Below, piece by piece: positions 1 to 36,139 of a stretch of DNA of 36,204 nt; position 1 is the stretch's first letter; the number at the start of each line of letters is the position of its first letter. Origin of the DNA: a virus; the IMG/VR virus record IMGVR_UViG_3300017710_000019, positions 1 to 36,204 of that record; one strand, written 5' to 3'. The position numbers and the translations under genes are program-made. The notes beneath the pieces are model-generated. The model was not told the DNA's origin and ran no database searches. It saw nothing but the letters and a program-made list of their open reading frames with translations.

Positions 1-237
1 CACAATAGACCCGCTACCAGTTCTAATGTCTATACCAGAAGAAGCAGAAGTGTGGAAAATCTGCATGATGCTTGCGCTAGGGTGTGTTATTACAAGACCA
101 CCTGTAGTTGTAATATTACCATTGACTTCTAGTGGGGCTCCGGGACTACTAGTTCCAATACCTACGTTGCCATCAATATAAACATCGTTTCTAAATCTAG
201 CGGTAAAGTTTTGTATGTACTCTCCTATAAATTTCAT
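1..237 (-). CDS. Tail fibre protein, N-terminal fragment (runs off the window)
   Basis: An open frame starts at the ATG at 237-235 and continues to base 1 without a stop (79 residues visible). The start reads MKFIGEYIQNFTARFRND, and about 22 residues in comes DGNVGIGTSSPGAPLEVNG. The V-GIGT-x-SP-x-x-x-LEVNG signature is very common at the base of phage tail fibres and tail-spike shafts, many of which end in an intramolecular S74 chaperone domain; that end lies outside the window. The ATG overlaps the stop of the preceding gene as ATGA, so it is probably translationally coupled. Role (inference): trimeric host-recognition fibre. The short hydrophilic stretch before the GIGT motif would be the virion-attachment part. 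The identification is good at the family level; receptor specificity cannot be told. Confidence 0.72.
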   Translation of the reverse strand, partial: MKFIGEYIQNFTARFRNDVYIDGNVGIGTSSPGAPLEVNGNITTTGGLVITHPSASIMQIFHTSASSGIDIRTGSGSIV

Positions 238-6700: not shown

Positions 6701-9700
6701 AAATGTTTTTGGCTCAATAGCTTTTGTTTTTAAATCAAAAAGAGCTGTGTCCCAAAAACCTAAAGTTTTACCGTTAGCATATCTGTTTATATCATTGATA
6801 TTATCTAAATTCCAACCCGCTTGCATATTTGATTGAAGACCAGCCTTAGTTAATCCATTATCTGTAGACTGTGGTATTATTGCCACATGATAATTATCAA
6901 GTAATTTTTTTAAATCTTTTTTACTTACTTTACCGTTTATGTAAGCAGCCATATAACTTGCTATTATTTTTCTAGGTATAGTATGCTCATATCTAAACGG
7001 ACCTTTTATATCTGCAGCTGGAACATACCTTACTGGCGCTGCTTTAGCTATTGCTGTATTCATGCCAGCGTTAGCCATAGACATAACAATCATTGCGGCG
7101 TCGTTTCTACTTATTTTTTTGTCTTTTACTAGTTTTATTAAAATATCAGAAAACTCTAACAAAAAGTCTTGCTCAACTTTAGCTTTTGAAGATATATCGT
7201 TGTAGTCTAAGTTAGCTTTATTTCTCATGTATGGCCCAACAGTCTGTGAGTTAGACTCTAAAAAACTTACATTATCTTGAGCTACATCTTCATTAGATAA
7301 AAAATTGCTTTCAAAGTCATTAGTACCGTCAAGCAAACCGTATCTTTTGTCAAGCTTTGTAACTTTTTCAGCTATTCTAGTTTTATATTCTTTTATTTTT
7401 CTTTTATCTCTACTTGTTCTTTTATTTTCTGGTTTAGCTAGTAAAGCGTCTAGTTTTCTTTGTGTTTTGCCAACTTTTAAAACATCAACACCTATAGCCA
7501 CAAGATCTGTAGAACCTATTTGAGAAGAAGTAGTTAAGCCTCTTAAAAATCTATCAGCTTTACTTCTACCTAAGACTTTAATAACTTCAAGTAAAGCTTT
7601 TCTACTATTAACTATTTGATCTTTATTACTAAAGTCAACCATATCTTTATCTAAATCAAACACGGCTTTAGCGCTTGTTGATTCAAACTCAGCGGCTGGT
7701 TGCGTCTGTTCGTTAAAATAATCTAACAGTGTAGTTTCATCTAATATACCTTGAGACTTTCTTATAACAATCAAGTCGTTATAATCTCCTAGTATTTTGC
7801 TAATATCTTCTTTAACACCTTTTCTTTGGCCGTCAAAGTTATAATAATTTTTACCTTTTGGAAAAACAAATTCAAAAGCTTCGTCAAAGTTTACACCTGC
7901 TTGTATTCGACTTAATAGTTCATCTAATTTGCTCGCTATATATTTTTGACCAAAAACATCTAAGTTACTTATTCTTTTACTAAACAAAGTTATATCTTGA
8001 TCTGTATTTATCCTAGCTTTTAAAGCTTTAATGCCAGCTTCACCACCAATAGCTTTTTTAACTTTATCATTTTTATTGACTACAGGGAATACAGCGTCTC
8101 TAGATATGTTAAAAGCTAAAGCTTTTGCTAAAGCGTTTTCTCTACCTCTCTTTGAAAAGAACTGTACAAACTGATCTTCATTAACGTTTGTTTTCTTTTT
8201 ATATATATTGTTTCCAGCTTCTAAGTTTTGTACTTCAAACGGCTGTATTAACCCGTCGTTTATAGCTTGTTTTATTACTTCTGGGCCTTGGTTAGTAGAA
8301 ACTAAATCTGCAAATATTTTGTTTGTTTCGTTTTTTTCAAGCTGAACAAGAGTAGCTGTGTTAACAATACGCATTATATCGTTTTTATGCTTTCGTAGAA
8401 ACTGCTCTCTACCTTTAACACCTTTACCCATCATAGACTTTATCTTTTTATAAAGAGCGTCTTCAACTTTGTTTTTAAACTTTTGCGTAAACTCAAACTT
8501 AGATATATCAGTTATATCAGATTCAATTAATATTTCTTCTACTACATTTTCTATTTCTGCAGCAAAGTTATCGTCAATGCCTATAGCTTTTCTTGAGTTA
8601 TATTCTGTAGCTTTCTCTAATAAAGTTTGCTTTTGTTTTTCTCTAGCTAATATAGCATCTATGTCTTGATCGCTTTCTATTTCTATGACTCTACCAGTTT
8701 CTGTTTCTGCATCTAGCGCTACAGTTTTCATGCCTAGTTTTGGAAACTTACGGTCTATAATACCGTCTTTAGCCATAAGCCTAGTGTTTATCAAGCCAAA
8801 AATATGCGAGTTTAAAGATCTTATATTGCCAGAAGCCATACTTTCGTCTAGCCAAGATCTAACAATGTAAGGTATACCGTTTTCGCCAGGCTGTATACCT
8901 GTAGTTAACATGTCAAGTATATCATCTTTTAACAAGTCGTAGTTTGTAGCCTTGTCTCTTTTGCTTAAATAGTTTACTTCAGAGAAAGTTCTCCACACAG
9001 GGCCTAACGAGCTTCCAAGCCAAAGCTTTGAGTCACCTAAGTTGTTCCAGTCTTTAACCATTTTATTAAAAACTTCTGGTTGATTTTCTCTTATATTAGT
9101 TAAACCTTCAGCGTCTAGCGCAAACAAGTCAGCGTTTTCTAAGCCTAACATTTGCAAACCTTCTATCAAAGCATCGTTGCTATCTTTAAATACGCCTTGT
9201 TGGTTTCTACTAGATTTTAAAGTAGACTCTTCTTGTAGTTTTGTATCTGGAAAATTACGGCTAGCAAATATTTCTTTTATTCTTTGCTTTACAACTACGT
9301 CATCACCTTCAAGATTAAGAGTGCCATTTTTAATTTTTGTAGCTAAACCTATTAAAAACTTAACAGCATCTTGTTCGCCTGCTAAATCTATGTTCATGCC
9401 TTTCTTTTTAGCGCCGTTTCTAACAAAAAAGCCTAACAAGCCAGCAAATCTACTATCATCATTTAAATTTACTCTACCAGCAGCAACTTCTTCAAAAAAT
9501 ACTGCTAAAACTTCTTGAGGTTTTCGTGGGCTATTTATATCGGTAGGATCAAATCTTTCTGCATAAGCTTGTACTCTTTCAAAAGATTTTTTATTGTTTA
9601 CTTCAAGCCACTTCATAACTTGATCAGCCATATCTTGATAAACTTCAGGCTCACCACCGATTATATCAACAAAAACTTGATGTTTAAGTTCATGAGTTCT

Positions 9701-12610
9701 TATATCAAGTCTATCATCTAAAACCATGTTTTCTATTACAATCAAAGACTTTCTACCATCTACAGTTTGTAAATTAAGGCCATGACTGCCGTTACGTAGC
9801 GATTGTATATCTTCGTCTCTTTGAGCATTTATAGCATCAGCATTGTTTGGGTCTTGCTGTATTTTAGCCTCAGCAACTTTATTTAAATACACTTCAGCTT
9901 CATCTACGTTATTAAAATCTACTAAAGTTTTACTTAGATTAGTTCCTTTAGATCTATTTAACTTTATGTCTGCTTGTATTTGCTCGTAATTATATAAATA
10001 TCTAGCTCTTTCTTCTATTTTAGTAGGATCTACTTTAGTACCCTCTTGTTCTAATTGCTGCTCTGCTAAATCTTTAATTCGTTTTACTTCAGCTTTGTTT
10101 TCTTTTTTAGTGCTGTATAAAGCCCAGTGGTTGTTAAAAGTTTTAGACTTCTTAAATGTTTTTATACCTCTTTCTGCATCAATATATTCAGCTTCTATAG
10201 CGTTTAACAGATCTTGTTTTGCTTGAGGATTAGTGTCAAAACTTTTGTTATTGTACACGTCAATATAGTTAGCTCTAAGCTGAGTCAATCTTTGTATACT
10301 TTTTACTAAAAACTCTGACGCTGCTCCGTCAAGTTGAAGTACTTTTGACTCAACAGCTTTTATCTCTTCGTCGATTTCGTTTTGCAGATCTGTAGCTCTT
10401 TGAGTGTTTTGAGATATAAGTTGATTTTTTCTTTGTTGAATATTTTCAGAAGTAGATCTAAGGCTTAAACTTCTATTAACTTCAAACAACCTATTAATCT
10501 CAAGCTTTTTATTAGTTATGTTATTATATTGATCGGCTGTTGAAAAATACTTTAAAACTTGTCCTTTTATAACAGGCACGCTAGCAAAACCTGTACCGAA
10601 GAAAAGACCAGAGAACATAGCATGATCTACATTTTCCATTAAATCTATACCATTTATTCCGTTTTGAGTGATTATAGTTAATCCTTCACCAACACTTTCA
10701 GCCCCAGCTCCAGCTATACCTTTAAGTGATTGATTTACTCTCCACTTTTTAAACTGACCTTTCATTATAGCAGACTGCACAGAGCTTCTACCAAGACCTC
10801 GTAATAAAAAGTATGTAGGTAAAGATCCAAAAACTACTTCAGCACTACCATATCCTAAAGAAGCAAAAAACTTTTCCATGTCACTATATTCTGCTCTAAT
10901 TTTAGGATCTAATTCTTGAGATGTCATGTTAGAATATTGTTCACCAAAACCACTCATACCTATAATACCAAATCCAGCGCCGCCAGGTGCAGCTAAAGCA
11001 AGAAATATAGGAAGTTGATTAGCTGTTTCTTGAGCAATAAAAGTAAAAAAGTTTTCAGCAGAGTCAAAAGCATTATCAAAAGCTACGTCTTTTTCAAATT
11101 GATTTCTTATTGAGTTGTAAAGATTTTTACGCTCTATAAATTTTTTATCTTCCTCAAGAGTATTAGCCCCAGTAAAAGCACTTAGCCCATAGCTAGCTCC
11201 ACCCAATAGCTCTGCAGTTCTAAGACCTGTAGTAGCAAAAAACTTGTGAACTCCGTTATAATTTCTTTTTAATAAATCTAACTTTAAATCTACACCTTGA
11301 GCTGCATCAATGCTTGTGGATAATTCTTCTTGTAGTTTGTTGTAGTGACTTATATCAATACTATAATTTTTTTGTAAATCTTCAAGCTCTTTTACTAGAT
11401 TTGCTGGTATAGCTCTACCGTCTTGCAAAAACAAAACATCTTCATCTTCTTCAATGTTAAAGTTGTAGTCTGGATTTATTATTTGACTATCTATTTCTTT
11501 TAATCTTTTTAGTTTATCACCCTCTAGCAGCTCGTTTTCTAAAACGTCGCGAAGTTTTATTTTAGAAGAAAACTGGTTGGCAAATTCTTTTGCACCTCTA
11601 TCTAGTAAAAATTGATACTCTTCGCTGTTATCTATTATATCGTCAGCTATTGCTTCTCTTTTAGCTATTATGTCTTCTTGCATTAACTTTTGCACTACAT
11701 AGTTTTGAAGCTGCTCTACCGTAGCTTTATCACCAAGATCTTTTTTAGCTTGAGCTAATTCTTTTTCATAAGGTGTTATTGTTTTTGTTGTTTGAACACC
11801 ACCCGCACCAGATAATATACCTGTTGAAGTTTCTGTTACTTCGTAAGGTTTAAATATATCTTTATTAGTTATTTTTCTAGGATTGCTTTTACTTTCCGGC
11901 TTGCTAAAATCAAAAGCAGGGTTATCAATTAAATACTTTTCTTCTATGCTTTGCTTGTCTATAGCCTCTTCTACTTGAGCACTAAATATTTTATATTGAT
12001 TAATGTTAGACTGAACGCTCTTTTGATACGCTTGCAGTTCTTGTGTTCCAGAGTGTTTATCTATAAAAGAAGTAAGCTTGTTAAAAGTTTCTTCTTGCTC
12101 TCTAAAAATATCTTCAGGAGCAGTTGAGCCAAGACCTATTCTAACTTGAAAAGCATCAGACTCAGTTCCATCTGGAGCTGTAACCTTTATCATATTCATG
12201 AACCTATGGCTATCATCTTCTAAGCCACCAAAAATACCACCTCCAACAGTTCTAAATATATTACCTGTTGTTTCAAATTTAAAGTTAGGATAATATATCT
12301 CTAAAGCTTTTGCGACATCACTATCTGTTTTTTCAAAAAGACCATATCCTATTACGTTTCCTTCCTCATCTTTGTCTTTTAAAAACTCATGACGCTCAAA
12401 TCCAGACGCCGAAGAAATATCGTCCAAGCTGGATGCCATATCTATTTCCGACGGTGCAGGCGCATCCTCTTCCACAACGTCTATCGGCTTTTCCACGACT
12501 TCTTCTTCTTGTACAACCTTAACAGCCGTGTCGCCATGTATCTTTAAAAAATCATTTAATCTGTGCGGAGCAACGTCATATAGCTGCCCGTCTACATTAT
12601 ATCTTTCCAT
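3722..12610 (-). CDS. Giant multidomain (polyvalent) internal virion/ejection protein
   Basis: 2962 residues. In order: an acidic Pro/Glu/Asp-rich N-terminus (about 30-70); long helical stretches; hydrophobic, Gly-rich putative membrane-inserting segments at about 532-552 and 580-700; a zincin-like site H973-E-L-K-H977 with a possible third ligand E1033 in QEVLAVFFEE; helical regions; a YEHTIP motif near 1875; a HAD phosphatase domain at about 2005-2175 (D2014-F-D2016-E-T, LTARP at 2092-2096, K2130, and VDD with D2149/D2150); a C-terminal helical region with hydrophobic segments near 2446 and 2640-2668; a highly charged Lys/Glu helix (~2840-2895); and two Cys3His knuckles (2900-2923, 2937-2961). 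Such arrays are known as large polyvalent proteins, thought to enter the cell with phage DNA. Its place after two smaller internal-protein candidates, and the lack of a tape measure, support an ejection role. Individual activities are inferred from motifs. Confidence 0.75.
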   Translation of the reverse strand: MERYNVDGQLYDVAPHRLNDFLKIHGDTAVKVVQEEEVVEKPIDVVEEDAPAPSEIDMASSLDDISSASGFERHEFLKDKDEEGNVIGYGLFEKTDSDVAKALEIYYPNFKFETTGNIFRTVGGGIFGGLEDDSHRFMNMIKVTAPDGTESDAFQVRIGLGSTAPEDIFREQEETFNKLTSFIDKHSGTQELQAYQKSVQSNINQYKIFSAQVEEAIDKQSIEEKYLIDNPAFDFSKPESKSNPRKITNKDIFKPYEVTETSTGILSGAGGVQTTKTITPYEKELAQAKKDLGDKATVEQLQNYVVQKLMQEDIIAKREAIADDIIDNSEEYQFLLDRGAKEFANQFSSKIKLRDVLENELLEGDKLKRLKEIDSQIINPDYNFNIEEDEDVLFLQDGRAIPANLVKELEDLQKNYSIDISHYNKLQEELSTSIDAAQGVDLKLDLLKRNYNGVHKFFATTGLRTAELLGGASYGLSAFTGANTLEEDKKFIERKNLYNSIRNQFEKDVAFDNAFDSAENFFTFIAQETANQLPIFLALAAPGGAGFGIIGMSGFGEQYSNMTSQELDPKIRAEYSDMEKFFASLGYGSAEVVFGSLPTYFLLRGLGRSSVQSAIMKGQFKKWRVNQSLKGIAGAGAESVGEGLTIITQNGINGIDLMENVDHAMFSGLFFGTGFASVPVIKGQVLKYFSTADQYNNITNKKLEINRLFEVNRSLSLRSTSENIQQRKNQLISQNTQRATDLQNEIDEEIKAVESKVLQLDGAASEFLVKSIQRLTQLRANYIDVYNNKSFDTNPQAKQDLLNAIEAEYIDAERGIKTFKKSKTFNNHWALYSTKKENKAEVKRIKDLAEQQLEQEGTKVDPTKIEERARYLYNYEQIQADIKLNRSKGTNLSKTLVDFNNVDEAEVYLNKVAEAKIQQDPNNADAINAQRDEDIQSLRNGSHGLNLQTVDGRKSLIVIENMVLDDRLDIRTHELKHQVFVDIIGGEPEVYQDMADQVMKWLEVNNKKSFERVQAYAERFDPTDINSPRKPQEVLAVFFEEVAAGRVNLNDDSRFAGLLGFFVRNGAKKKGMNIDLAGEQDAVKFLIGLATKIKNGTLNLEGDDVVVKQRIKEIFASRNFPDTKLQEESTLKSSRNQQGVFKDSNDALIEGLQMLGLENADLFALDAEGLTNIRENQPEVFNKMVKDWNNLGDSKLWLGSSLGPVWRTFSEVNYLSKRDKATNYDLLKDDILDMLTTGIQPGENGIPYIVRSWLDESMASGNIRSLNSHIFGLINTRLMAKDGIIDRKFPKLGMKTVALDAETETGRVIEIESDQDIDAILAREKQKQTLLEKATEYNSRKAIGIDDNFAAEIENVVEEILIESDITDISKFEFTQKFKNKVEDALYKKIKSMMGKGVKGREQFLRKHKNDIMRIVNTATLVQLEKNETNKIFADLVSTNQGPEVIKQAINDGLIQPFEVQNLEAGNNIYKKKTNVNEDQFVQFFSKRGRENALAKALAFNISRDAVFPVVNKNDKVKKAIGGEAGIKALKARINTDQDITLFSKRISNLDVFGQKYIASKLDELLSRIQAGVNFDEAFEFVFPKGKNYYNFDGQRKGVKEDISKILGDYNDLIVIRKSQGILDETTLLDYFNEQTQPAAEFESTSAKAVFDLDKDMVDFSNKDQIVNSRKALLEVIKVLGRSKADRFLRGLTTSSQIGSTDLVAIGVDVLKVGKTQRKLDALLAKPENKRTSRDKRKIKEYKTRIAEKVTKLDKRYGLLDGTNDFESNFLSNEDVAQDNVSFLESNSQTVGPYMRNKANLDYNDISSKAKVEQDFLLEFSDILIKLVKDKKISRNDAAMIVMSMANAGMNTAIAKAAPVRYVPAADIKGPFRYEHTIPRKIIASYMAAYINGKVSKKDLKKLLDNYHVAIIPQSTDNGLTKAGLQSNMQAGWNLDNINDINRYANGKTLGFWDTALFDLKTKAIEPKTFEWARVNSIITDTEQEFNYNILNSQIVLNARSTTLKSARGMSTFDFDETLIIDGENFIVARKGDEEIKISSGRWPIDGPVLADQGYNFDFSDFVNVRGGVNGPLLTKFKNRLEKFGPENMYVLTARPQQSAEAIHGWLKSKGLTIPLANITGLGNSTGEAKAEWMLKKFEEGYNDMYFVDDALPNVKAVKNVLDQLDIKSDVQQAITLKSERISVEFNKMLERTKGIGEFKTFSRVEAMKRGKNVGGFKLFVPPSAEDFTGLLRYFAGTGAQGDADIKFFEEALVKPFARADREMAEMKQKIRDEYKAINKQFPDVKKKLGKLTTLKGFTLDNAIRVYLFDKAGHEIPGLSKSAKSKLINIVKSDPQALAYAESVSRITKQKEGYIAPDEYWNVGNIAQDLQDVVNKVSRKQFLAEWKNNVDIAFSETNLNKIEAVYGSDFRSALEDILYRMESGQNRRRGASKFENQWNNWVNNSVGAIMFFNARSAVLQTLSTVNFINFEDNNIFKAGRAFANQKQYWSDFSFLFNSSFLKNRRAGLATNINEAELASAVAGAKNKAKAALSYLLKIGFTPTQIADSFAIASGGATYYRNRINRYLKEGMSQAEAESQAMLDFQEIAEETQQSARPDRISQQQASNLGRIILAFANTPMQYNRLIKKAAGDLINKRGDWRSNISRILYYGAVQNFIFASLQNALFAMAFEDDEEKEELKQTRVVNSMLDSILRGSGIAGATLATVKNAILEYIEQSEKGYRADYNEVVIEALQVSPPLGSKARKLSSAGKTVKFNKEVMQRMDLLDYDNPLWLAVGNTVEATTNIPMARAIRKIDNLREAMNQDNTNLQRLFLSLGWSSWDLNVGEEVIRNEGKDNEYKVFLDKRRKAVEDVKTEIKEEKKQETIRKKEEKKIQKEKEQQAEVEANKEKQKEEGEKATCAAITSSGKRCKRKPVKGGFCTVHEKVEKSESGEMKQCKKIKSDGKRCGMTTNSKSGLCYYHD
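3725..3913 (-). repeat. Tandem Cys3His zinc knuckles at the C-terminus of the giant protein
   Basis: Residues 2900-2923 and 2937-2961 are two copies of the pattern C-x9-C-x9/10-C-x2-H. Copy 1 has C2900, C2910, C2920, H2923; copy 2 has C2937, C2947, C2958, H2961. Both share GKRC around the second Cys. The pattern resembles the short C-x-A-x-T-x-x-G-x-x-C...C-x-x-H motif grouped, from memory, as DUF5763 in bacterial and phage proteins. The spacing is right for one zinc per copy. A DNA- or RNA-binding role at the very end of the chain is plausible, not shown. Confidence 0.7.
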
Positions 12611-24435: not shown

Positions 24436-25938
24436 TTACTTCATTAACATAAAGTTGTTTGCACCTTGTACAATTAAACATCTTTCTGATAACATGTGAA
24501 TCTGCATTGCGTCTAAAGCAGATGTAGCAGCTCCAACTGAACCAGTAGTCCAAGTCTTCATTCTACGATCATCTGTTTGAGAAGCTCTGTATCGAACGTG
24601 TAAGAAAGGACGCTTAAGGTTCTTTCCTAATTGCTGATCGTATACAGTAGAAGTACCAGCAGGAATAATGACTCCACGGATAGCGTTAGCGCCAGCCGCA
24701 TCATTAATACCACCACGAGTAGCTTTATCGTTTAAGTAACGGAAGTCAGGCTTATAGAAGTCGTAAGATCCTCTACGGAAACCAGAGAAGCCTAAGTTCA
24801 ATGCCATATCCTCATCGTTTTCGAATACTCCGTAAGAAGTACCACCAGCACCATAAGAGTTCATAGAAGCTAACATATCGTCAAATGCTAAAGATGTAGC
24901 ACGGTTAACGAATAGCATGTTTTCTTCAATAGCACCTTGTTTGTCAAACTCTGCTAGTATAGCGTCAAACTCAGCTAAGTCAGTAGCAGCGTTAACACCA
25001 GTAACACCAGAAGTTACGTTACCTCTCTTTTCAATAGCAGAGAATAAACCTTCAGTACCAACGTTTCCAGCGCCAGCTGAAGAACCATCGATAAGGTTAC
25101 TACCATCAACTTGAGAATCAGCCAAGTTTAACTCAGACTCTATCATTGACATTTCTAAATAGTCAGTGAAACGAGCTCTAGTATCAGCTTCAGCTTTTAA
25201 GTACCATAAGTAACCTGATTGTCCTTCTTCACCAGTAATTTCAACCCAACCAATTCTAGATGTATCAGATCCTGATACTTCGTAGTAATCTTTTAAAATA
25301 ATTGGCTTGTTAGAAAAAGTTTTGAACGAAGGCTCGTTAGCACCTCGTCTATCAGTGTCAACACCGTTTTGCCCAGCAGAAGTTGTATAGCTACCACCTT
25401 TTCCAAACTCAGAACCATAAACTAATATAGTAATGTTTTCAGCGTCTGTCGAAGTAATACCAGCAGTATTCAAAGATGCAAAATCATAAGGTAGCACGTC
25501 TATTTTGTCAGTTGTGTCAGTAGCTTCTACTAAACACTTAGTAACACCTTGAGAGTTAGCAACGATAATAGTATCGTTAACTCTAATACCGTGATTTGAG
25601 CCTATGTCGTTTCCATCAATATCTTTTTCGATTTCGATTTGACCACCAGAAGCAGTACCACCTGTTGCACTTACAACTTTTCCTTTGTAAGATAAATGTA
25701 AACGACCTTGTTCAGACCAAATAACTTGATCAGAAGTCATCGCTTCTTCAGCTCCAATTTTTGATAAGAAACCTGAAATAGTTCTCGGTCCGAAAACTTC
25801 AGCTTCTTTTTCCATTAGATCTGGTAAATATTGTTGAGCCCAACCCATGTCTTGGTTGAAGTCTAAATAGTTTGTAGCTAGCGTTTGGGGCTTTGAAGCA
25901 GGAACGCTATTCAAACTATTACCTGGAGTAATTGCCAT
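24436..25938 (-). CDS. Major capsid protein
   Basis: 500 residues. It follows portal and a scaffold-like gene and precedes a strong terminator, the standard place of the major head protein. The sequence has the features of an HK97-fold capsid of marine phages: an N-terminal arm (ATNYLDFNQDMGWAQQYLPD), a long helix with LMEKEAEVFGPRTISGFLSK, a beta-rich middle (HGIRVNDTIIVANSQGVTKC), a spine-like helix (DYLEMSMIESELNLADSQ), an AADLAEFDAILAEFDKQGA-like segment (residues ~325-345) and a C-terminal domain with KRPFLHVRYRASQTDDRRMK. Codon choice near the gene looks more evenly distributed than in neighbours, as for a highly made protein, but this was only judged by eye. Identification is by context plus sequence style; no fold prediction was run. 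Confidence 0.8.
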   Translation of the reverse strand: MAITPGNSLNSVPASKPQTLATNYLDFNQDMGWAQQYLPDLMEKEAEVFGPRTISGFLSKIGAEEAMTSDQVIWSEQGRLHLSYKGKVVSATGGTASGGQIEIEKDIDGNDIGSNHGIRVNDTIIVANSQGVTKCLVEATDTTDKIDVLPYDFASLNTAGITSTDAENITILVYGSEFGKGGSYTTSAGQNGVDTDRRGANEPSFKTFSNKPIILKDYYEVSGSDTSRIGWVEITGEEGQSGYLWYLKAEADTRARFTDYLEMSMIESELNLADSQVDGSNLIDGSSAGAGNVGTEGLFSAIEKRGNVTSGVTGVNAATDLAEFDAILAEFDKQGAIEENMLFVNRATSLAFDDMLASMNSYGAGGTSYGVFENDEDMALNLGFSGFRRGSYDFYKPDFRYLNDKATRGGINDAAGANAIRGVIIPAGTSTVYDQQLGKNLKRPFLHVRYRASQTDDRRMKTWTTGSVGAATSALDAMQIHMLSERCLIVQGANNFMLMK

Positions 25939-25958: not shown

Positions 25959-27143
25959 TTAATTTCTTTTTTTAAATTTAAACGAAGGCGTGCTATCCTC
26001 CATCGCTCTTACTTTAAGTCCACCTGTGCTTTCATTACTAAAAGACTGTCTAGCATCCATGTTTACATTTTTTGCGTTAGCAACAGAACTTTGTATAGCA
26101 TCAGCTTTACCTTGTTCGTAAAAGTGTCTAGCGATAACGTCTGGATTCATAGCAGCATATAAAGCTTTGTGGTAACCTTCAATGTCTTTAATAGTATTAT
26201 CTTTGTTTAAAAACTTATTGATAAAATTATTAATATCACTTTGGTTCCTCGCAACTTCATTTGGATTAGGTACTTTAACATTTAATTTTTTACCATCAAC
26301 ATTGTATTCAAAACCTTTGAAATTTTCGTTTAAAACTTGATTAGTTTCGTTGATAAAATAATTAGAACGTTCTTTCGCTAATTGCTCCTGCGCTTCCGTT
26401 TCTTCGTTATATTGATTAAAGAACTGTATCGCTTCTTTCTGCTCAGCAGTAAGATTTGATCCAGCTTTAATCTCATCATAATACTTAGACTTTTGCCCGT
26501 CTAAATAGGCTTTAGCCTCTGCAACCTGCTCTTTTAAGGCTATTTTTTTTCTTCTAACTTCTCTCTCTTCATCAAGCTCTTCGTCGAACTTAAAGTTTTC
26601 TTCCATGAGAAATTGTCGTTCCTCAGCATCTAAGTGAGGTTTAGTTGTTCTATAATATTCGTCAAGCGCTGTTAGATTATCCATTTCTTCGTAGTTTCGG
26701 TTTAACCTAACATAATCTTCTACGCTTCCGCCAGTATCATTTACAAAATCAACTAGCTTTTGTATATTTTCTGGTAATGCCTGACCAGTAGCAGCTGCTT
26801 GCCCTATGGCTTCGTTCGCTGCTTCTACAGTGTTGCTTACTTCTTGTTGGACACTTTGTTCGGCAACTTCTTCATTTGTTGCTTCGACGTTTTCTTCGCG
26901 TACTTCTTCGCTAGCTGCGGATTCGTCGCGAACAGGTACCTCATCTGTGTTTTGCTCCTGAACGGCATTTTCTAATTCATTTATTTTGTTCATATCAAGA
27001 ACAATAGTACCATCATCTTTATAAGACACTGGAGACTCTTGCTCTACTACTTCTTCTTGTGGTTGCTCGTTTTGCGGTTGCTCCACTTGTTCTTCAGCAG
27101 TCTCTACGCTTTGAACTTCTTCAACGTTTTCGTTTTCTTCCAT
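25959..27143 (-). CDS. Capsid scaffolding protein (putative)
   Basis: 394 residues. Residues 1-125 are extremely acidic and Gln-rich (MEENENVEEVQSVETAEEQV, then many EE/EQ/QP pairs), probably disordered. A helical middle follows (about 130-260: ALPENIQKLVDFVNDTGGSV, VRRKKIALKEQVAEAKAYLD). The C-terminal part contains NPDVIARHFYEQGKADAIQS and ends in a basic FKFKKRN. Tailed-phage scaffolding proteins are acidic, helical, lie between portal and capsid genes and end with a basic capsid-binding helix-turn-helix; all of these are seen here. No separate prohead protease domain is visible in it. The gene has an A/T-only leader of 20 bases. Confidence 0.7.
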   Translation of the reverse strand: MEENENVEEVQSVETAEEQVEQPQNEQPQEEVVEQESPVSYKDDGTIVLDMNKINELENAVQEQNTDEVPVRDESAASEEVREENVEATNEEVAEQSVQQEVSNTVEAANEAIGQAAATGQALPENIQKLVDFVNDTGGSVEDYVRLNRNYEEMDNLTALDEYYRTTKPHLDAEERQFLMEENFKFDEELDEEREVRRKKIALKEQVAEAKAYLDGQKSKYYDEIKAGSNLTAEQKEAIQFFNQYNEETEAQEQLAKERSNYFINETNQVLNENFKGFEYNVDGKKLNVKVPNPNEVARNQSDINNFINKFLNKDNTIKDIEGYHKALYAAMNPDVIARHFYEQGKADAIQSSVANAKNVNMDARQSFSNESTGGLKVRAMEDSTPSFKFKKRN

Positions 27144-27165: not shown

Positions 27166-29604
27166 TTATCTAGGGTCAAAACCACCCAGTCCCATGCCAC
27201 CTCCAAGTATATCATTACCTGATGACTCAAACTTTTTAGGTGGTGCACCTGTTTTTCTTTGCTCTATAAGTTCACTTTGCTGACTAGCTTGTATTCTAGT
27301 TCTTTCATCTTTACGATCTTCTTTTTCTTTTTCTTTGTTACCAATAGACTGTAAATCCATTTGTTTTAATCGCATGTTAATTTGAAACTCATGATCCATA
27401 AGCTGCTTCTTAACATTAGCTTCGTGACTTATTATTTGAGTTTTAGCTTGAGTACGTATTTGTTCAAGCTGCGCATTCATCTGCGTCATGGCTTGCTGCT
27501 TCTGTACTTCTGCTTGAGCAGCAACTTGCTGTGCCTGTGCGTTAGCTTCAGACTGTGCTTTTATATTTTCTTGCTGACGTTTTTGATCATCGTCAAGCTT
27601 TTTCTTACGTCTGATCTTTAACATTTGATTAGCAAGTCTAACGTTTCTAATCTCACGCAGGTCTATAGCATCAGACAAGTCTATACTGTTTTGCTGTAAT
27701 GCTTGCTGTATGTTATTTTCTAATAGTTGCTTTTGCTCATCATCTGGCGCAAGCTCTATAAATATACCAAAGTCATACAAATGTAAATTAGCCATCTCTT
27801 CAAGCGTGCCCACATTATGAGCTCCAATCGCTTGAATAAACGCATCTTTTGTAGGTGAATATTCTATTATATCAGATATTCTTAACGATAAACTTTCAGC
27901 CACAGATTTAGTTAAAAATAATCCCGCTTGTAGTATATGCCTTGTTGCTGTGTTACTGTTTGCAGCTGCTAATTTTTGCACTCCAACTAAAGCATCTTTT
28001 GAAGGCGTACTACCATCTCTAGCTTCGTTAAGCCCGGTTGTATCACGTATCATCTGCATATAATAGTTGTATGTACCTATTAAGCTTTGCATCTTAGCAC
28101 CACCATTACCACTTTGTATCTCTTGTATTGGTACACGACCTGGATTACCTTCGCCTAGCTCGTTCATTGATCTACCAATAACACTACCTGTTTGGAAGAA
28201 CATATTTAAAGCTTCCTGCGGATTATAGTTTGTACCGTTACCTAGGTCTATCTCAGCTAAACCATCAGCGTCAAGATAAATACCATCAGGTATAAGTCTT
28301 GACATAACTTGCTGTAGTTTTAAATGCGTAAGCTGTATCATATCTGCAAAACCAGTTATACGACCAACTAAACTTTCTATACGACCGTTGTACATACGCG
28401 GAGCTACAATAGAGTAATTCATTTTAACTTTATTAAAATCACTCTTAGGCCTCATCATGTTGTCAACTTTTTGCCATTGTATAAGCATGTCAGTTCCAAC
28501 TATAAACGCGCCCTCAAACAAGCACTCTACAGTCTTTTGCAGCTTTGTAAAGTTAACTTGCACATCTTTAGGTGGGTTGAAAGTATCATCTTTTTCTATA
28601 ACCTTCATGGCGCCAGTAGCAGTTTCTTTAACCTTGTATACGTTGTTCATATACGTCTTGTAGTTAAAATATAAAACTTGCACTTTGTTATTGTCTGTCT
28701 CCCTACCGTAAGAATATTTTCTAGAATATCTACCTGATGTTTGATTGTTAGAATTTAGTATCTTTTTTATTTCGTCTTCTTGTAGATCTGGAAATTGCTT
28801 TACAAGCTCGTTAATAGGTACATCTTTAACTTCACCAACGTAGTATATATCATCAAAGTATGGTGAGTCTGTGTATGAATATACTAAATCAGCTGGATCA
28901 ACATATTCTACTACTACGCCTTCAGATCTATTAAAGTTTGTTTTTACAGCTCCAATACCTAATACGGTTAAGTCATAGTTAACTCTTTTTCTTATAAGAT
29001 CATAGTTACTACCATCAAGCAGTACGTTTATAGCCTGTTCTTCTGCTAGCTCTACGGCTTGCTTATATGTTAGCTGCATGTGCAACTCAAGTTCTTCTTC
29101 TGTTTCTGGTAGTTTATCTTCTGGAACAGTTGATAAGTCTACGTTAAAAGTCTCTTTGTAAAACTTATTAAAATCTTTAGTACGCATTTCATCTAGCATA
29201 CGCTGCATGTAGTCAGTACGTTTTTGCACGCCGTAAGGATCTTGTGAATAAGCTTTTATATCAAAAGTTCTTTCACTCATACCGTTTACAACAATATCAA
29301 CAAACTTAGGTATAATAGGTACAGGCTTCCAGTCTAGATTTAAGTAGCTTAAGTCACCGTTTACTGAAAGCTCATCTTTGTATTTTTGTATACCTTGTTC
29401 GCCTCTAGCGTATAATCTTAGTTTATGAAACGTGTTCTTGTTGTTGTAATATCTACTACTAGAATAATTGTTACCCATAGTGTTCGACTCAAACCACTCT
29501 TTTTCTATAGCTTTTGCTATTTTTAATCCATAGTCAGGTAACATTTTTTCTAAGTCACTTACAGCTTGACTAGGAAAATAATTTTTATATACTGATTCAG
29601 CCAT
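27166..29604 (-). CDS. Portal protein
   Basis: 812 residues. It forms the dodecameric channel through which DNA enters the head. It directly follows the large terminase (2-base gap) and precedes the scaffold and capsid genes. Portal-like features: an N-terminal helical region (YGLKIAKAIEKEWFESN), KFVDIVVNGMSERTFDIKAY, the wing/stem segment VNYDLTVLGIGAVKTNF followed by VEYVDPADLVYSYTDS, and the clip/crown-side region DTTGLNEARDGSTPSKDALV with GVQKLAAANSNTATRHILQA. Residues about 665-790 are a long Gln/Lys-rich coiled coil (QANAQAQQVAAQAEVQKQQA style), likely the barrel that projects into the head, and the chain ends Gly-rich (GGGMGLGGFDPR). Length is at the upper end for podovirus portals because of this barrel. 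Confidence 0.88.
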   Translation of the reverse strand: MAESVYKNYFPSQAVSDLEKMLPDYGLKIAKAIEKEWFESNTMGNNYSSSRYYNNKNTFHKLRLYARGEQGIQKYKDELSVNGDLSYLNLDWKPVPIIPKFVDIVVNGMSERTFDIKAYSQDPYGVQKRTDYMQRMLDEMRTKDFNKFYKETFNVDLSTVPEDKLPETEEELELHMQLTYKQAVELAEEQAINVLLDGSNYDLIRKRVNYDLTVLGIGAVKTNFNRSEGVVVEYVDPADLVYSYTDSPYFDDIYYVGEVKDVPINELVKQFPDLQEDEIKKILNSNNQTSGRYSRKYSYGRETDNNKVQVLYFNYKTYMNNVYKVKETATGAMKVIEKDDTFNPPKDVQVNFTKLQKTVECLFEGAFIVGTDMLIQWQKVDNMMRPKSDFNKVKMNYSIVAPRMYNGRIESLVGRITGFADMIQLTHLKLQQVMSRLIPDGIYLDADGLAEIDLGNGTNYNPQEALNMFFQTGSVIGRSMNELGEGNPGRVPIQEIQSGNGGAKMQSLIGTYNYYMQMIRDTTGLNEARDGSTPSKDALVGVQKLAAANSNTATRHILQAGLFLTKSVAESLSLRISDIIEYSPTKDAFIQAIGAHNVGTLEEMANLHLYDFGIFIELAPDDEQKQLLENNIQQALQQNSIDLSDAIDLREIRNVRLANQMLKIRRKKKLDDDQKRQQENIKAQSEANAQAQQVAAQAEVQKQQAMTQMNAQLEQIRTQAKTQIISHEANVKKQLMDHEFQINMRLKQMDLQSIGNKEKEKEDRKDERTRIQASQQSELIEQRKTGAPPKKFESSGNDILGGGMGLGGFDPR

Positions 29605-29606
29605 AT

Positions 29607-31823
29607 TTAATTTTTAATTATTGTCGATGAATAACCATCGTTTTTATATCTAGCAATATTTATATTTACTTTTGGTCTTTCTATTTTAGCGTTTGGCGCG
29701 TATAAATGTCTGTTGCAAGCCATTATAGCTAGACCAGAACTTATAGATGCATCAAACTTAGTTCTTCTATTTATATCAAACTTAGCCCAGTCGTTTAACG
29801 TTTCGTTAAAATACATTGACCCATATCTTCCACTTTCTATATGACCAACATGATCGTTGATATACATTTCAATAGCAGCAGCGTGAGCTTGTTTTATGTC
29901 CTCGCTAGAGTTAGGTATACCACCTACTTCTTTTTCAGCAACAGATAATTTATTCCAAACTTTATCAGGTCTGTTCATACTAAAACCTCTATAGCCTCTA
30001 CGTCTCAAGTAGTATAGTAATCTTGGTTTGTTGTTTTCAGCTAATATTGGCATGCCATAAAATACTAGTGCCATTAGCACATCTTCAAAAAACATTTCAG
30101 CGGTTTGTGGTCTAGCTATATATTCTAGAAAAAAAGCGTTAGCTGGAGCGTCTTCCATAGAAAACTTTGTTAATCCATGAAGAGATCCGTTGGATCCTCT
30201 ACCATCAACAGTACCGCTAATATCATAACTATCGCAGCCAAAAGCGCCCATATGCTCATTTCCAGGATATTTTATTCCGTTCTTAATTATAACTTTATTC
30301 TGTAGGTGTGGTTGTGGTGTCCAAGATATTTTAAACCTACCTTTTGGGTTTGGGTGGAATATTACGTGGGTATCTTTAACTCCGTTGGCCCACTGAAAAT
30401 TACCAGTGTTAACAACTGCAGAGCTAGTTATTCCTTCGTTGTAATCTATTTGCTCGTATATTTTAACTAAGTTAAATATACTGTTTTTTGTTTCATCTCT
30501 AAACGCATGCTCTTCAGTTCTTGGAAACTGTCTGTAAAACTCGTTTAACGCGTCTTGATCTGACTTTAATCCTTCAACTTCGTTTTCCCAGTGGCTAATA
30601 ACACCTTGATCTATTAATTCACCGTGTGGTCCGTGTACATCATCGCTAGGGTTATTAAATGTAGGTTGTCCGTATTCGTCAATAAATCCTTCAAAGTTCC
30701 ATTCCATTGGCATAAACAAAGAATATAAGCCAGACTTTGTTTGTCCATTTCTATTTCTACTTGTGACGTCTGAGTCATTGTATAGTTTTTTAAAGTTATC
30801 ACCACCTTTATCTAGCGAGTTACTTGTAGAGCCCATCATACACTTACCAACTATACGAGCACCTAGCCTTAAACAAGTTTTAGTTACTCGCCAGTTGTTT
30901 AGAATATTATCAGGTCTTTCCCACTTACCACTTTCATCGTGAACTAGCAAGTTAAGTTTTTCACCGTCATAGCTGTTATCACCAGTGTTTTTCCAATCAA
31001 TAGTAGTGTCAAGTCCAACCAGCTCTTCCTGCTTTTCGTTTGCAGTAATTTTTTTACGCGTAAACTTACTTGCAGGAACCCTATAAGCAAGCTCACTTTT
31101 AGGTCTGTCCATACCGTCTTGTATCGGTTTAAAGAAAAACGGATAGTTGACAGATATTGGTACAACTTTATCGGTAAACATCTTTTTAGCATCAGCACCA
31201 CTTTTTGATAGTATTCCATATCTAGCATCACTCGATATTGTAGCTAAGTTAACAGTTTCAGCTGAGCTCATGAATGAAAAACCACTACGTCTGTTTTTTA
31301 AATAACACATACCGTAGCATCTATTATCAGCTTTACAAGCTTCCCAAAATATAAAGAACAGTCTGTTAGCTTCTCTAAAATCTGGAGCGCCAACGTCAAT
31401 TTTACTCCATTGCAAATACATATAGTGGCTACCTGTTATATACGTAGGTTTGTTGTTGTTGTAAAACCAAAAACCTTCTTCTCTACGTTTAAACTCTTCG
31501 TCGATATAGTCGTACCACTGTTCTTTTGCTTCTTCTGGATAATTTCTCCAGTCAAATATGTTTTTTAATTTACTTAATTCTTTAGGATAGTCTACTCTTT
31601 GCCATTTGTTTTTGTCGAACATATGCACTGATTTCGGTTCACTCGGCAACCCAATTCGCAAACCTTGAATCTCCACCACTTGTCCAATTTTTCCAGTTTT
31701 GCTAATAACGACAATATCGTTTTCTTTATCATATCCATATTTCCATAGACGTTTTTTGTTAAGTCGACTTATAGTAGTCCTCTTAACTGGTTCAACAATT
31801 TTATATAGTGCTTGCTCGTACAT
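29607..31823 (-). CDS. terL: Terminase large subunit
   Basis: 738 residues. It pumps DNA into the prohead and cuts the concatemer. ATPase: a variant Walker A region, LKNRRSGFS at 175-183 (no classical GK[ST]); Walker B with LLVHDES, D296-E297; coupling motif MMGSTSNS at 329-336. Nuclease: first acidic residue D531 in AFGCDSYDISG, then the beta-strand LEYIARP (566-572) and further acidic residues (FFEDVLMAL, 578-586). About 120 residues precede the ATPase core, more than in many terminases. The start overlaps the stop of the putative small subunit (TAATG). The fold order, the neighbours (small subunit before, portal after) and the length all agree. High confidence. Confidence 0.93.
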   Translation of the reverse strand: MYEQALYKIVEPVKRTTISRLNKKRLWKYGYDKENDIVVISKTGKIGQVVEIQGLRIGLPSEPKSVHMFDKNKWQRVDYPKELSKLKNIFDWRNYPEEAKEQWYDYIDEEFKRREEGFWFYNNNKPTYITGSHYMYLQWSKIDVGAPDFREANRLFFIFWEACKADNRCYGMCYLKNRRSGFSFMSSAETVNLATISSDARYGILSKSGADAKKMFTDKVVPISVNYPFFFKPIQDGMDRPKSELAYRVPASKFTRKKITANEKQEELVGLDTTIDWKNTGDNSYDGEKLNLLVHDESGKWERPDNILNNWRVTKTCLRLGARIVGKCMMGSTSNSLDKGGDNFKKLYNDSDVTSRNRNGQTKSGLYSLFMPMEWNFEGFIDEYGQPTFNNPSDDVHGPHGELIDQGVISHWENEVEGLKSDQDALNEFYRQFPRTEEHAFRDETKNSIFNLVKIYEQIDYNEGITSSAVVNTGNFQWANGVKDTHVIFHPNPKGRFKISWTPQPHLQNKVIIKNGIKYPGNEHMGAFGCDSYDISGTVDGRGSNGSLHGLTKFSMEDAPANAFFLEYIARPQTAEMFFEDVLMALVFYGMPILAENNKPRLLYYLRRRGYRGFSMNRPDKVWNKLSVAEKEVGGIPNSSEDIKQAHAAAIEMYINDHVGHIESGRYGSMYFNETLNDWAKFDINRRTKFDASISSGLAIMACNRHLYAPNAKIERPKVNINIARYKNDGYSSTIIKN

Positions 31824-33884: not shown

Positions 33885-34307
33885 TTATTTTTCTTTTATT
33901 TGTTCGTTTTTCTTTGAACTTCCACCGAAGAAGAAGTCTATTATTGTATTTACTTTAGCACTCATAGCGCCAAATATAGTTGATATAAAGCTTATTTCAA
34001 ATTCACCTAAGTTTATAGACTTTGTAACAAAGTAATTAAACATTACAAACGTAATACCAAAATACGCTACAGTAAACAACGTTGCTAATACTTTTTGTAT
34101 AATAGCATCGTCTTTATACATATCACGCGCAGATTTACGATCTTCAACTTCTTTTGCAAAAGCTTCACGCTCTGCGTCAAGAAGCAGCTTTTTAAGAGCA
34201 AGCTTTGCTTCGTCTCTCTCTTTGTCTGTAGTAATTACTTTGTCAAGTATACCTTCAGCATTATCTACGATCTTACCGAATAAACCTCCTACTAAATTAT
34301 TTATCAT
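33885..34307 (-). CDS. Holin of the 3TM (GTA-holin) type
   Basis: 140 residues. An N-terminal amphipathic helix (MINNLVGGLFGKIVDNAEGI), a charged helical region (DKERDEAKLALKKLLLDAER, then EVEDRKSARDMYKDD), two clear hydrophobic segments (72-93, KVLATLFTVAYFGITFVMFN; 103-127, EISFISTIFGAMSA) and a C-terminal FFFGGSSKKNEQIKEK. The order 'EDRxSARDMY...DxxxQKxLA', membrane segments, then FFFG-S-S-K is the hallmark of the phage/GTA 3TM holin family. The role is to permeabilise the inner membrane for lysis; no endolysin is visible next to it. The start overlaps the previous stop as TAATG. Confidence 0.78.
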   Translation of the reverse strand: MINNLVGGLFGKIVDNAEGILDKVITTDKERDEAKLALKKLLLDAEREAFAKEVEDRKSARDMYKDDAIIQKVLATLFTVAYFGITFVMFNYFVTKSINLGEFEISFISTIFGAMSAKVNTIIDFFFGGSSKKNEQIKEK

Positions 34308-34744
34308 TACTTAGGGTTTGAAAGATATAAACGCCCACCTGCTTTAGGTCCTTCGACGTACTCTACGTATTTTCTGTTAGTTCCAGATTCTACTTTAATT
34401 TTACTTAAATTACCTTCATCAATATTATTAGTATTGATTTTCTTACCGTCTGCGTTAAACAAGTTTTCAGGTATACCAGCGCCAGTGTATTGACCTTCTT
34501 TAGTTCCTTGTCCAGGTCCTTTTTCTTCTTGCATCTTAGCTGGTGATAATCCTGGCAACAACTTGTCTTCAAGTCTACTCATCTTATCGATTTTTCTTTG
34601 AGCCTTTTTATCTTTACCTTGCTTATTAGCTTTTTCAGCTTTATCCTGAAGCTTGTTCATGCGGTTAATTATTCTGTTTTGTTTTCTTTCGCTAACTTCT
34701 TTAGCTAATTTAGCCATTGAAGCGTTCTTCATTTTAAATGCCAT
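34307..34744 (-). CDS. MAFKMKN-leader protein, basic coiled coil
   Basis: 145 residues. The first 16, MAFKMKNASMAKLAKE, are almost the same as in the next upstream gene (34765-35442). The following part is a very basic helix (RKQNRIINRMNKLQDKAEKA, KQGKDKKAQRKIDKMSRLED), then a Gly/Pro-rich linker (KGPGQGTKEGQYTGAGIPEN) and a small beta end with NRKYVEYVEGPKAGGRLYLS. No family or catalytic motif. Since the leader is conserved while the rest differs, it may be a targeting or processing signal. It overlaps the holin gene by one base and has an A/T-only leader. Function unknown; a head-internal or DNA-binding protein would fit its charge. Confidence 0.5.
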   Translation of the reverse strand: MAFKMKNASMAKLAKEVSERKQNRIINRMNKLQDKAEKANKQGKDKKAQRKIDKMSRLEDKLLPGLSPAKMQEEKGPGQGTKEGQYTGAGIPENLFNADGKKINTNNIDEGNLSKIKVESGTNRKYVEYVEGPKAGGRLYLSNPK

Positions 34745-34764
34745 AATATTTAGTTTGTTTTGTA

Positions 34765-35442
34765 TTAAACGTCCCCGCCTTTTCTTTTTGTATTTTTTCT
34801 AACTCTATTACCTGCTCTTGCCTCTATCACTTTTTCAGCTGCAGCTTGTCCAGTTCTTCTTCCTTTTCCAACGCCAACTGTAACACCTGCAGCTTTTCTT
34901 AATCCAAGTCTACCACGTCTATTAGATACTCTTTTTATAGATCCGTCTTTATTATATTTAACTTTAGTTGTGATTTTCTTTTTACCTTTACCTGTTTGTA
35001 ATTTTATCTTTTTTACATCTTTAAGATTAGTTGTGCCAAATTGTTTACTTCCATCACCTGTTGATAAATTAGCTATACCTTCTCCTTTTTTTGGTTTTCT
35101 TCCTTTAACTGTTGCGCGTACTGTTCTTTCATCAGTATTATCATAAAATTGATCTGTATTAGGATTATACTTAAGACCAGGATAAACTTTTGAATCTCTC
35201 TCTACGTTTTTTCTAGCAGCCGTTTCATTATCATCGTTAGGATCATCTCCTAATTTCATGTCTGATGTTACTGTTTGATTTTCAATTCTGGTCTTAACTA
35301 CTTCTTTTTGCTCATCTGTTAAGAAATCTTTTTCATTTTTTGAAAACTTAAACTCATCTTTAGCTTTCATAGGTGAAACTCTATTGTTGCCAGCTTCTTT
35401 AGCTAGTTTAGCCATCGAAGTATTTTTCATTTTAAACGCCAT
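34765..35442 (-). CDS. MAFKMKN-leader protein, strongly basic C-terminus
   Basis: 225 residues from the ATG at 35442-35440 (MAFKMKNTSMAKLAKEAGNN). A longer frame from 35475 overlaps the previous gene and hides the leader; the start two bases after that gene's stop is preferred because it reproduces the leader shared with its neighbour. After the leader come an acidic/polar part (about 30-90), a middle with KVYPGLKYNPNTDQFYDNTD, and a Lys/Arg/Gly-rich end (GKGKKKITTKVKYNKDGS, NRRGRLGLRKAAGVTVGVGK, NRVRKNTKRKGGDV). No family recognised. The basic end suggests nucleic-acid contact. Unknown function. Confidence 0.5.
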   Translation of the reverse strand: MAFKMKNTSMAKLAKEAGNNRVSPMKAKDEFKFSKNEKDFLTDEQKEVVKTRIENQTVTSDMKLGDDPNDDNETAARKNVERDSKVYPGLKYNPNTDQFYDNTDERTVRATVKGRKPKKGEGIANLSTGDGSKQFGTTNLKDVKKIKLQTGKGKKKITTKVKYNKDGSIKRVSNRRGRLGLRKAAGVTVGVGKGRRTGQAAAEKVIEARAGNRVRKNTKRKGGDV

Positions 35443-35444
35443 AG

Positions 35445-35801
35445 TTATTCTGCTTTTTTTGCTCTTTGCTCCCAAGGAAAAACCATGCTACCTTCTTCGT
35501 GGAACTTACCGTTATACTTTATTTTACCGTCCTTTCTTGGATATGTTTTACCTTTGTATCTAACGTAATCATCTCCGTATGACAAACCTATTTTAGGATC
35601 TTCCATATCTTTTAAATGTTGCTTTTCATGGCGTATAGCTCTTTTTTCAAGAGCACTACCAGGCTTTACATTTTTATTTATAAATATAGATCCATCTAAG
35701 TTAGCTTCAGCTACAATACCTTTATCTAGCTTTTTTCTAAATATAGGTGTTGTTTTTGAATTTTTTATATTTCTTTTTTCGTTACCTAATTTAAACGCCA
35801 C
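35445..35801 (-). CDS. Small zincin-like protein with an HEKQH motif
   Basis: 118 residues with a GTG start (35801-35799), beginning MAFKLGNEKRN, a variant of the leader in nearby genes. Residues 58-62 are HEKQH (HExxH) in a helix (LEKRAIRHEKQHLKDMED); a possible third ligand is E111 in FPWEQRAKK. Between them lie beta strands DDYVRYKGKTYPRKDGKIKY and NGKFHEEGSMVF. A helix with HExxH, then a downstream 'PWE-x-RA' helix, is the minimal layout of small metallopeptidase-like zincins. Whether it cleaves proteins is not known; a maturation protease is a tempting idea, because no other prohead protease is visible near the capsid genes. It ends two bases before the next start. Confidence 0.55.
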   Translation of the reverse strand: MAFKLGNEKRNIKNSKTTPIFRKKLDKGIVAEANLDGSIFINKNVKPGSALEKRAIRHEKQHLKDMEDPKIGLSYGDDYVRYKGKTYPRKDGKIKYNGKFHEEGSMVFPWEQRAKKAE

Positions 35802-35803
35802 GT

Positions 35804-36139
35804 TTAGTCTTTTGTGTTTTTCATTAAATCATACTTATCTTTATCTAATGTAGTAGAGCCTGTGCCAGCGGAAAAGCCATCTAACATAGCTAACACACCC
35901 GATGATCTAGCTCCAAGCTTTAAAACTTTACTTCCACCTTTAATAAGGTTTTTTAACTTTGAAGCTACTCTTTTCTTTTCACTAGAGCTAACAGTCTTTA
36001 TACTTTTAATTTCTTTAAGTATTTTCTTACCAGCTTCGGTACTAACATCTACTGTGCCTCTTCCTCCAAACACTGAAACTTTTTTTGGAGAAGTTGCGGT
36101 ACTTAGCTTAAAAGGATTGTTCTTTTGTTTATACGCCAT
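35804..36139 (-). CDS. MAYKQKN-leader small basic protein
   Basis: 111 residues. The start MAYKQKNNPFKLSTATSPKK resembles the MAFKMKN leader of nearby proteins. It is basic throughout, with a helical middle (AGKKILKEIKSIKTVSSSEK, KRVASKLKNLIKGGSKVLKL) and a Gly/Ser-rich segment (GARSSGVLAMLDGFSAGTGS) before a charged end. No family or catalytic motif. It lies 3 bases from the partial gene upstream and 2 bases from the HEKQH gene downstream, so it is part of the same transcript. Function unknown. Confidence 0.45.
   Translation of the reverse strand: MAYKQKNNPFKLSTATSPKKVSVFGGRGTVDVSTEAGKKILKEIKSIKTVSSSEKKRVASKLKNLIKGGSKVLKLGARSSGVLAMLDGFSAGTGSTTLDKDKYDLMKNTKD

Follow-up and report, generated by a model that had tools for sequence, protein, structure and literature searches.

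In phage T4, diverse internal proteins share only a capsid targeting sequence, which directs them to the scaffolding core and is then cleaved off (PMC3012670). In phage P22, electrostatic contacts hold the C-terminus of the scaffold on the coat protein (PMC9965877), and a cargo becomes encapsidated when it is joined to a truncated scaffold (PMC9962691). Phage crAss001, a podovirus of Bacteroidota, stores phage-encoded cargo in its head; the cargo described in the sections of that report drawn on here consists of large proteins, and no common N-terminal tag was found in those sections (PMC10172136).

The phages analyzed here carry a tag of the form [FY]K[MLQ]K that opens about 120 unrelated protein families in a single clade, usually several per genome. 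As in T4 (PMC3012670), one short N-terminal sequence is found on small, basic, diverse, and fast-changing proteins that are encoded in polymorphic cassettes. In contrast to T4, these phages are podovirus-like, the tag can be shifted inward, a metallopeptidase is among the tagged proteins, and the motif recurs at the end of the putative scaffold. A tblastn search with a 29-residue tag against 50,697 phage records yielded one chance-level match, in a Roseobacter phage, and none in T4. In outline, this system appears to work like T4 capsid targeting, but by sequence it is not a member of it. The likeness to P22 lies in a small basic terminal element that anchors the scaffold to the coat and in the fact that part of the scaffold, placed on a cargo, suffices for encapsidation (PMC9965877, PMC9962691). 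However, the P22 element is a C-terminal helix-turn-helix of one protein and its cargo fusions are man-made, whereas here a motif of 4 to 6 residues occurs naturally on many proteins.

The window, i.e., the whole stretch of DNA that was analyzed, is a 36.2-kb fragment (36,204 nt) from an IMG/VR record of an uncultured podovirus-like phage, with all head and tail genes on its minus strand. These include the genes for the terminase large subunit (TerL; 29607..31823; PHROG 6681, E 4e-177), which defines the tag-bearing clade, the portal protein (27166..29604; PHROG 6547, E 2e-156), and the major coat protein (24436..25938), assigned by its position and by a match to PHROG 13704 (virion structural protein, head and packaging; E 2e-94). 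The TerL is 64% identical to that of MW202828, a spring-water phage assembly, 46% identical to those of Flavobacterium Elemovirus phages, and about 38% identical to those of Cellulophaga phages. From these identities, a host from the class Flavobacteriia is likely; no crAss-like phage was found with the window TerL as the query. The tag-bearing viruses are uncultured and mostly marine, with flavobacteria-type hosts. Tagged genes are absent from the late regions of the cultured relatives Elemovirus, phi38:1, phi46:3, and Gundel_1, as well as from the assembled MW202828. Elsewhere in the window, a 601-aa protein (234-2039, minus strand) with a signal-peptide-like start contains repeated GCxDxxAxNYxxxAxxxxGSC units and a sub-threshold match to a type IX secretion sorting domain (PF18962, E 0.04), which is unusual in a phage and would imply a flavobacterial host. 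The 2,962-aa product of 3722-12610 (minus strand), probably an ejection protein, contains a phosphatase-like FDFDETLI stretch and two cysteine/histidine-rich zinc-type units at its C-terminus.

Four tagged genes lie next to each other just upstream of the terminase gene. A preliminary description of this region had noted four consecutive genes with a shared leader, without naming the strand; all four are on the minus strand and share the start M-A-(F/Y)-K. Gene 2, listed there as MAFKLGN, begins with GTG, and gene 1 carries a distinct flavor of the tag. Gene 1 (35804..36139) encodes a 111-aa protein (pI 10.2) with the start MAYKQKNNPFK (tag MAYKQKN, 36119..36139) and an unknown body that has homologues in loci L003, L005, and L133. 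Gene 2 (35445..35801; 118 aa, pI 9.9) encodes a putative minimal gluzincin zinc metallopeptidase whose tag (35781..35801), MAFKLGN in the family, reads VAFKLGN in the window. Gene 3 (34765..35442; 225 aa, pI 10.2) is absent from the near-identical relatives L002, L003, and L005 and starts with MAFKMKNTSMAKLAKE (35395..35442). Gene 4 (34307..34744; 145 aa, pI 9.9), whose body family was found in 15 loci, starts with MAFKMKNASMAKLAKE (34697..34744). A second type of start, M[AV]YIQ(K/S)(N/S)NP, opens several neighboring proteins in another locus (L114:9797-11786), and the start of gene 1 (MAYKQKNNPF) looks intermediate between this type and the main tag.

The tags of genes 3 and 4 agree in 15 of the 16 opening residues. 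Six codons differ among codons 2 to 16. Five of these changes are synonymous (GCG/GCA, AAA/AAG, AAT/AAC, TCG/TCA, and CTA/TTA), as the preliminary description had stated, and the single replacement is ACT/GCT. The identity is gone from codon 17, and there is none upstream of the ATG. The bodies, likewise described as unrelated, proved to be so: blastp recovers the 16-residue tag alone (E 2e-6), and nothing below E 0.09 remains among the bodies once the tag is removed. On their own, these codons favor the peptide as the selected unit and are silent on its role.

Tag DNA also works as a recombination joint at which bodies are swapped. In L003, L004, and L005, which do not have gene 3, codons of the gene 3-type tag are joined to the body of gene 4; the tag DNA of the joined gene matches gene 3 from codon 6 through codon 13 in L003 and L004 and through about codon 9 in L005. 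Gene 3 is also missing from L002, with a different joint, and in L005 an additional tagged gene is inserted between genes 1 and 2. This turnover of cassettes among near-identical phages resembles the diverse set of internal proteins in T4 (PMC3012670). Another body, GLGD...CGC...FPY, has the tag in L082 but not in MW202828. Since both this body and the peptidase occur elsewhere without the tag, the tag is a detachable module.

The raw number of IMG/VR matches to the tag was discounted as evidence because a scrambled motif filled the list of matches just as well, and the frequency of the tag was determined instead in 80 viral loci picked by TerL homology and not by the tag. These loci contain 878 genes with complete starts, 31 of which open with M[AG][FY]K[MLQ]; the same type of residues never follows an internal Met (0 of 5,678). 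Starts of the M[AG][FY]K form were found in 33 of 857 genes in the TerL loci versus 2 of 1412 in control viral loci chosen with the scrambled motif (Fisher p 2e-12). Among 34 long contigs bearing the pattern, 28 are confirmed tag carriers with TerLs at least 73% identical to that of the window, and the other 6 look like isolated chance matches. The strict pattern marks up to six genes per contig, always on one strand, while the reversed control pattern had zero matches in 49 contigs. De novo ranking of 4-mers was dominated by orthologues. The starts MAFKMKHGDF... and MAFKMKWFNQ..., as well as the MSYKQ... start of a TerL, were set aside as chance matches.

The pooled loci yielded 281 unique tag-like proteins; of these, 261 have the stricter start and make up 123 body families (about 120, given that a few are weak singletons) with no similarity between families. 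The tagged genes are on the same strand as the head genes and form two late-gene islands, one within about 9 kb upstream of the TerL gene and the other about 27-38 kb downstream of it. Their products are small (median, 122 aa), and the preliminary description of the tag as a mark of varied basic proteins holds across the clade, with a median body pI of 9.34 versus 6.23 in other small proteins. When 115 tagged proteins were compared with Pfam and PHROG, the matches were almost exclusively to unknown families. A true N-terminal tag was not found in 257 Gb of bacterial and archaeal genomes, where a 20-base version of the tag matched 27 times but never in a tagged phage gene. The strings MAFKMK, MAFKMKG, MAFKLG, and MAYKQKG had no hits in the open literature searched, which comprised 5.39 million papers. 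The pattern is real and strong and is apparently undescribed in that literature.

The core [FY]K[MQ][KR]G also occurs outside the tagged set: there are 13 occurrences in 504,382 aa, all of them at residues 4-23 of the respective proteins, as in MSIPFKMKGFSGFK and MSYKPFKMKGHTLPG. As all 13 shifted cores are in this range, the tag is an N-terminal peptide motif that is not tied to the start codon, and the retention of the peptide in the shifted variants argues strongly against a translation-start or DNA signal. Residues 8-40 are enriched in another, less strict element, S[PA]xK, which reaches 10.6 per 1000 aa there, compared with 1.8 in the remainder of the bodies and 0.6 in other genes. The claim that selection acts on the peptide and not on the DNA is thereby upheld in its main part, by the synonymous changes and by the shifted copies; it needs the qualification that the tag codons are A-rich, like those of other gene starts, and that the tag DNA serves in recombination.

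The gene between those for the portal and the coat protein (25959..27143, minus strand) encodes a 394-aa protein that, judging from gene order, acidity (pI 4.4), and a helical structural model with disordered ends, is the putative scaffold. The gene order, the pI, the helical model, and the residues 365-394 being mostly below pLDDT 50 are all traits of HK97-lineage scaffolds. This protein had no PHROG match, and its model matched no solved structure, scaffold or other (Foldseek, PDB, E <= 0.001), and only unnamed or uncharacterised proteins in a viral structure library. It ends with SFKFKKRN (25962..25985; family consensus, FKFKIKN), which has F-K-x-K in common with the tag. The motif [FY]K[MFVILQ][KR] was sought at both ends of the proteins in 44 families with at least 8 members. 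Terminal F-K-x-K is frequent only in the tagged families, at the N-terminus, and in the putative scaffold, at the C-terminus; it is not frequent at either terminus of the GroEL, portal, TerL, or tail families. The C-terminal motif is found in 41 of 56 putative scaffolds versus 14 of 2,620 other complete proteins, counts that include homologues and are not independent events. One 101-aa protein, in L164, also carries the motif at its C-terminus (SSGFKMKRK).

Basic scaffold tails are also found in the untagged relatives Elemovirus, phi38:1, and MW202828; a phage can thus have the tail without the tag. In Elemovirus and phi38:1, the proteins in the scaffold position (L141:13810-14829 and L142:30621-31823), annotated as 'structural protein', start with MFKMKLEG or MAFFKKQG and end with KFKLV or LRFKRKK. 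Within the tagged clade, the tag of the peptidase varies with the type of scaffold tail: where the tail is of the F or Y type, the tag is FKLG in 16 of 17 clear cases, and where it is of the L type, the tag is FK[LM]K in 5 of 5. This concordance is confounded by shared ancestry, which could explain it.

The most constant tagged protein is the putative peptidase encoded by gene 2, found in about 90 loci. Its zinc-binding motif is predicted to be HEKQH (residues 58-62; 35616..35630), with E111 of a PWE motif (35469..35471) as the putative third ligand, i.e., the HExxH and downstream Glu pattern of gluzincins. An alignment of 79 members shows no variation at M1, K4, E59, H62, and E111 and at least 90% conservation at F3 and H58, so that the tag residues equal the putative active site in conservation. 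Because many of these 79 sequences had been collected through the tag, more weight is carried by the TerL-selected loci, where the tag is found on 25 of 26 complete homologues. The Pfam matches are weak (M90, M91, and M78), and for the model (pLDDT 80) the best Foldseek matches were selecase, IrrE, abylysin, and jannalysin, with probabilities up to 0.93 and E values of 0.19 or worse. Similarly to the minigluzincins abylysin, jannalysin, and selecase, the gene 2 product has HExxH and a downstream Glu, and it may share their zinc peptidase scaffold of about 110 residues; it differs from them in the phage tag and the conserved PWE motif, and the structural scores are weak. Distant relatives with unrelated N-termini are encoded by the T4-like phages Melnitz, phiM12, and Cr30 and by the Tenacibaculum phage pT24.

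Because the same motif ends the putative scaffold, the tag looks like an address label for loading into the head. We put at roughly 0.47 the probability that it is a head-targeting docking motif that mimics the scaffold tail. According to this reading, the leader would be a short linear docking motif with the core [FY]-K-[MLQ]-[K/G] that directs unrelated small basic proteins, as well as a single putative metallopeptidase, to the phage head during its assembly. Its most likely partner would be a site on the coat protein to which the C-terminal tail (FKFKIK) of the putative scaffold would bind as well; by mimicking the scaffold, the tagged proteins would gain entry to the procapsid, and some of them may later be ejected with the DNA. 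We infer the binding of the tail to the coat, the docking of the tag at the same site, packaging, and any roles after entry into the cell. The mimicry has a weak point in that the shared core is only four residues long; also, the commonest tag of the peptidase, FKLG, has one lysine fewer, and some scaffold tails are of the LKIK type while the tags remain FKxK. The preliminary description had suggested a capsid-packaging or processing signal; packaging gains support from F-K-x-K at the end of the putative scaffold, whereas processing by cleavage does not, as up to about 20 additional residues can precede the motif and no cleavage site is conserved downstream.

Several other explanations of the shared start have to be weighed against scaffold mimicry, the least probable of which dispense with a role for the peptide. 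The common start could be a nucleic-acid device, such as an A-rich translation enhancer or a recombination joint. The joints in L003, L004, and L005 and the preference for A at third positions of the tag codons fit this idea. However, this codon choice is largely that of other gene starts, five of the six differing codons in genes 3 and 4 encode the same residue, the peptide is retained away from the start codon, and positions 3 and 4 remain F and K irrespective of the codon used, so that we regard such a device as very improbable. No better are the chances of common descent only, with a recent burst of duplication and divergence of the bodies that left the start by chance: it would account for the extended 16-residue start shared by genes 3 and 4, but not for the retention of the same 4 to 6 residues by about 120 families without detectable similarity, nor for homology between these two genes that is confined to the stretch from the ATG to codon 16, and the peptidase and GLGD...FPY families occur elsewhere with different starts.

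Somewhat better placed, yet still improbable, is the view that the tagged metallopeptidase uses the tag as its recognition or cleavage sequence and would trim or digest the tagged proteins at head maturation or after injection. The constancy of this enzyme, its usual co-occurrence with other tagged genes, and minigluzincins as its nearest folds speak for this option; against it, the peptidase is itself tagged, the motif can be shifted as described above with no cleavage residue conserved past the core, and the relatives of the peptidase in T4-like phages are untagged. The strongest competitor, although an unlikely one, has the tag docking to another phage or host partner (phage GroEL, the portal or tail, RNA polymerase, or the membrane), so that tagged proteins would have in common a partner and not a location in the head. 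The motif is of a docking type and near the N-terminus, tagged proteins have almost no recognizable domains, and one of the two islands adjoins phage groEL/groES in several relatives. However, the second island is remote from groEL, on the far side of the giant ejection-type gene, the leaderless MW202828 and Elemovirus also encode GroEL/GroES, and in the 44-family scan the terminal motif is shared by the putative scaffold and not by the GroEL, portal, TerL, or tail families.

A further extension of scaffold mimicry, which we consider doubtful, is that one scaffold-mimicking peptide serves as a general cargo code for more than 100 fast-changing injected proteins, for example anti-defence proteins, with the tagged zinc peptidase acting as a protease in the head or after injection. 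If scaffold mimicry is right, the tag would predict head-cargo genes in abundant uncultured phages and turn more than 100 unknown families into candidate injected proteins, it would represent a natural encapsidation tag of 4 to 6 residues, and capsid targeting of the T4 type would have arisen separately by copying the docking tail of the scaffold itself. A search of the literature for virion proteomics of Flavobacterium phages gave nothing relevant.

Two more features of the tagged loci can be mentioned. In L111, L101, L131, and L030, genes for phage GroEL and GroES, assigned by eye, lie within the upstream tagged-gene island or next to it. Several short tagged proteins (L037:3827-3991, L054:333-482, L086:704, and L162:4095-4295) share a C-terminal YTDY, as if they carried a second terminal signal.
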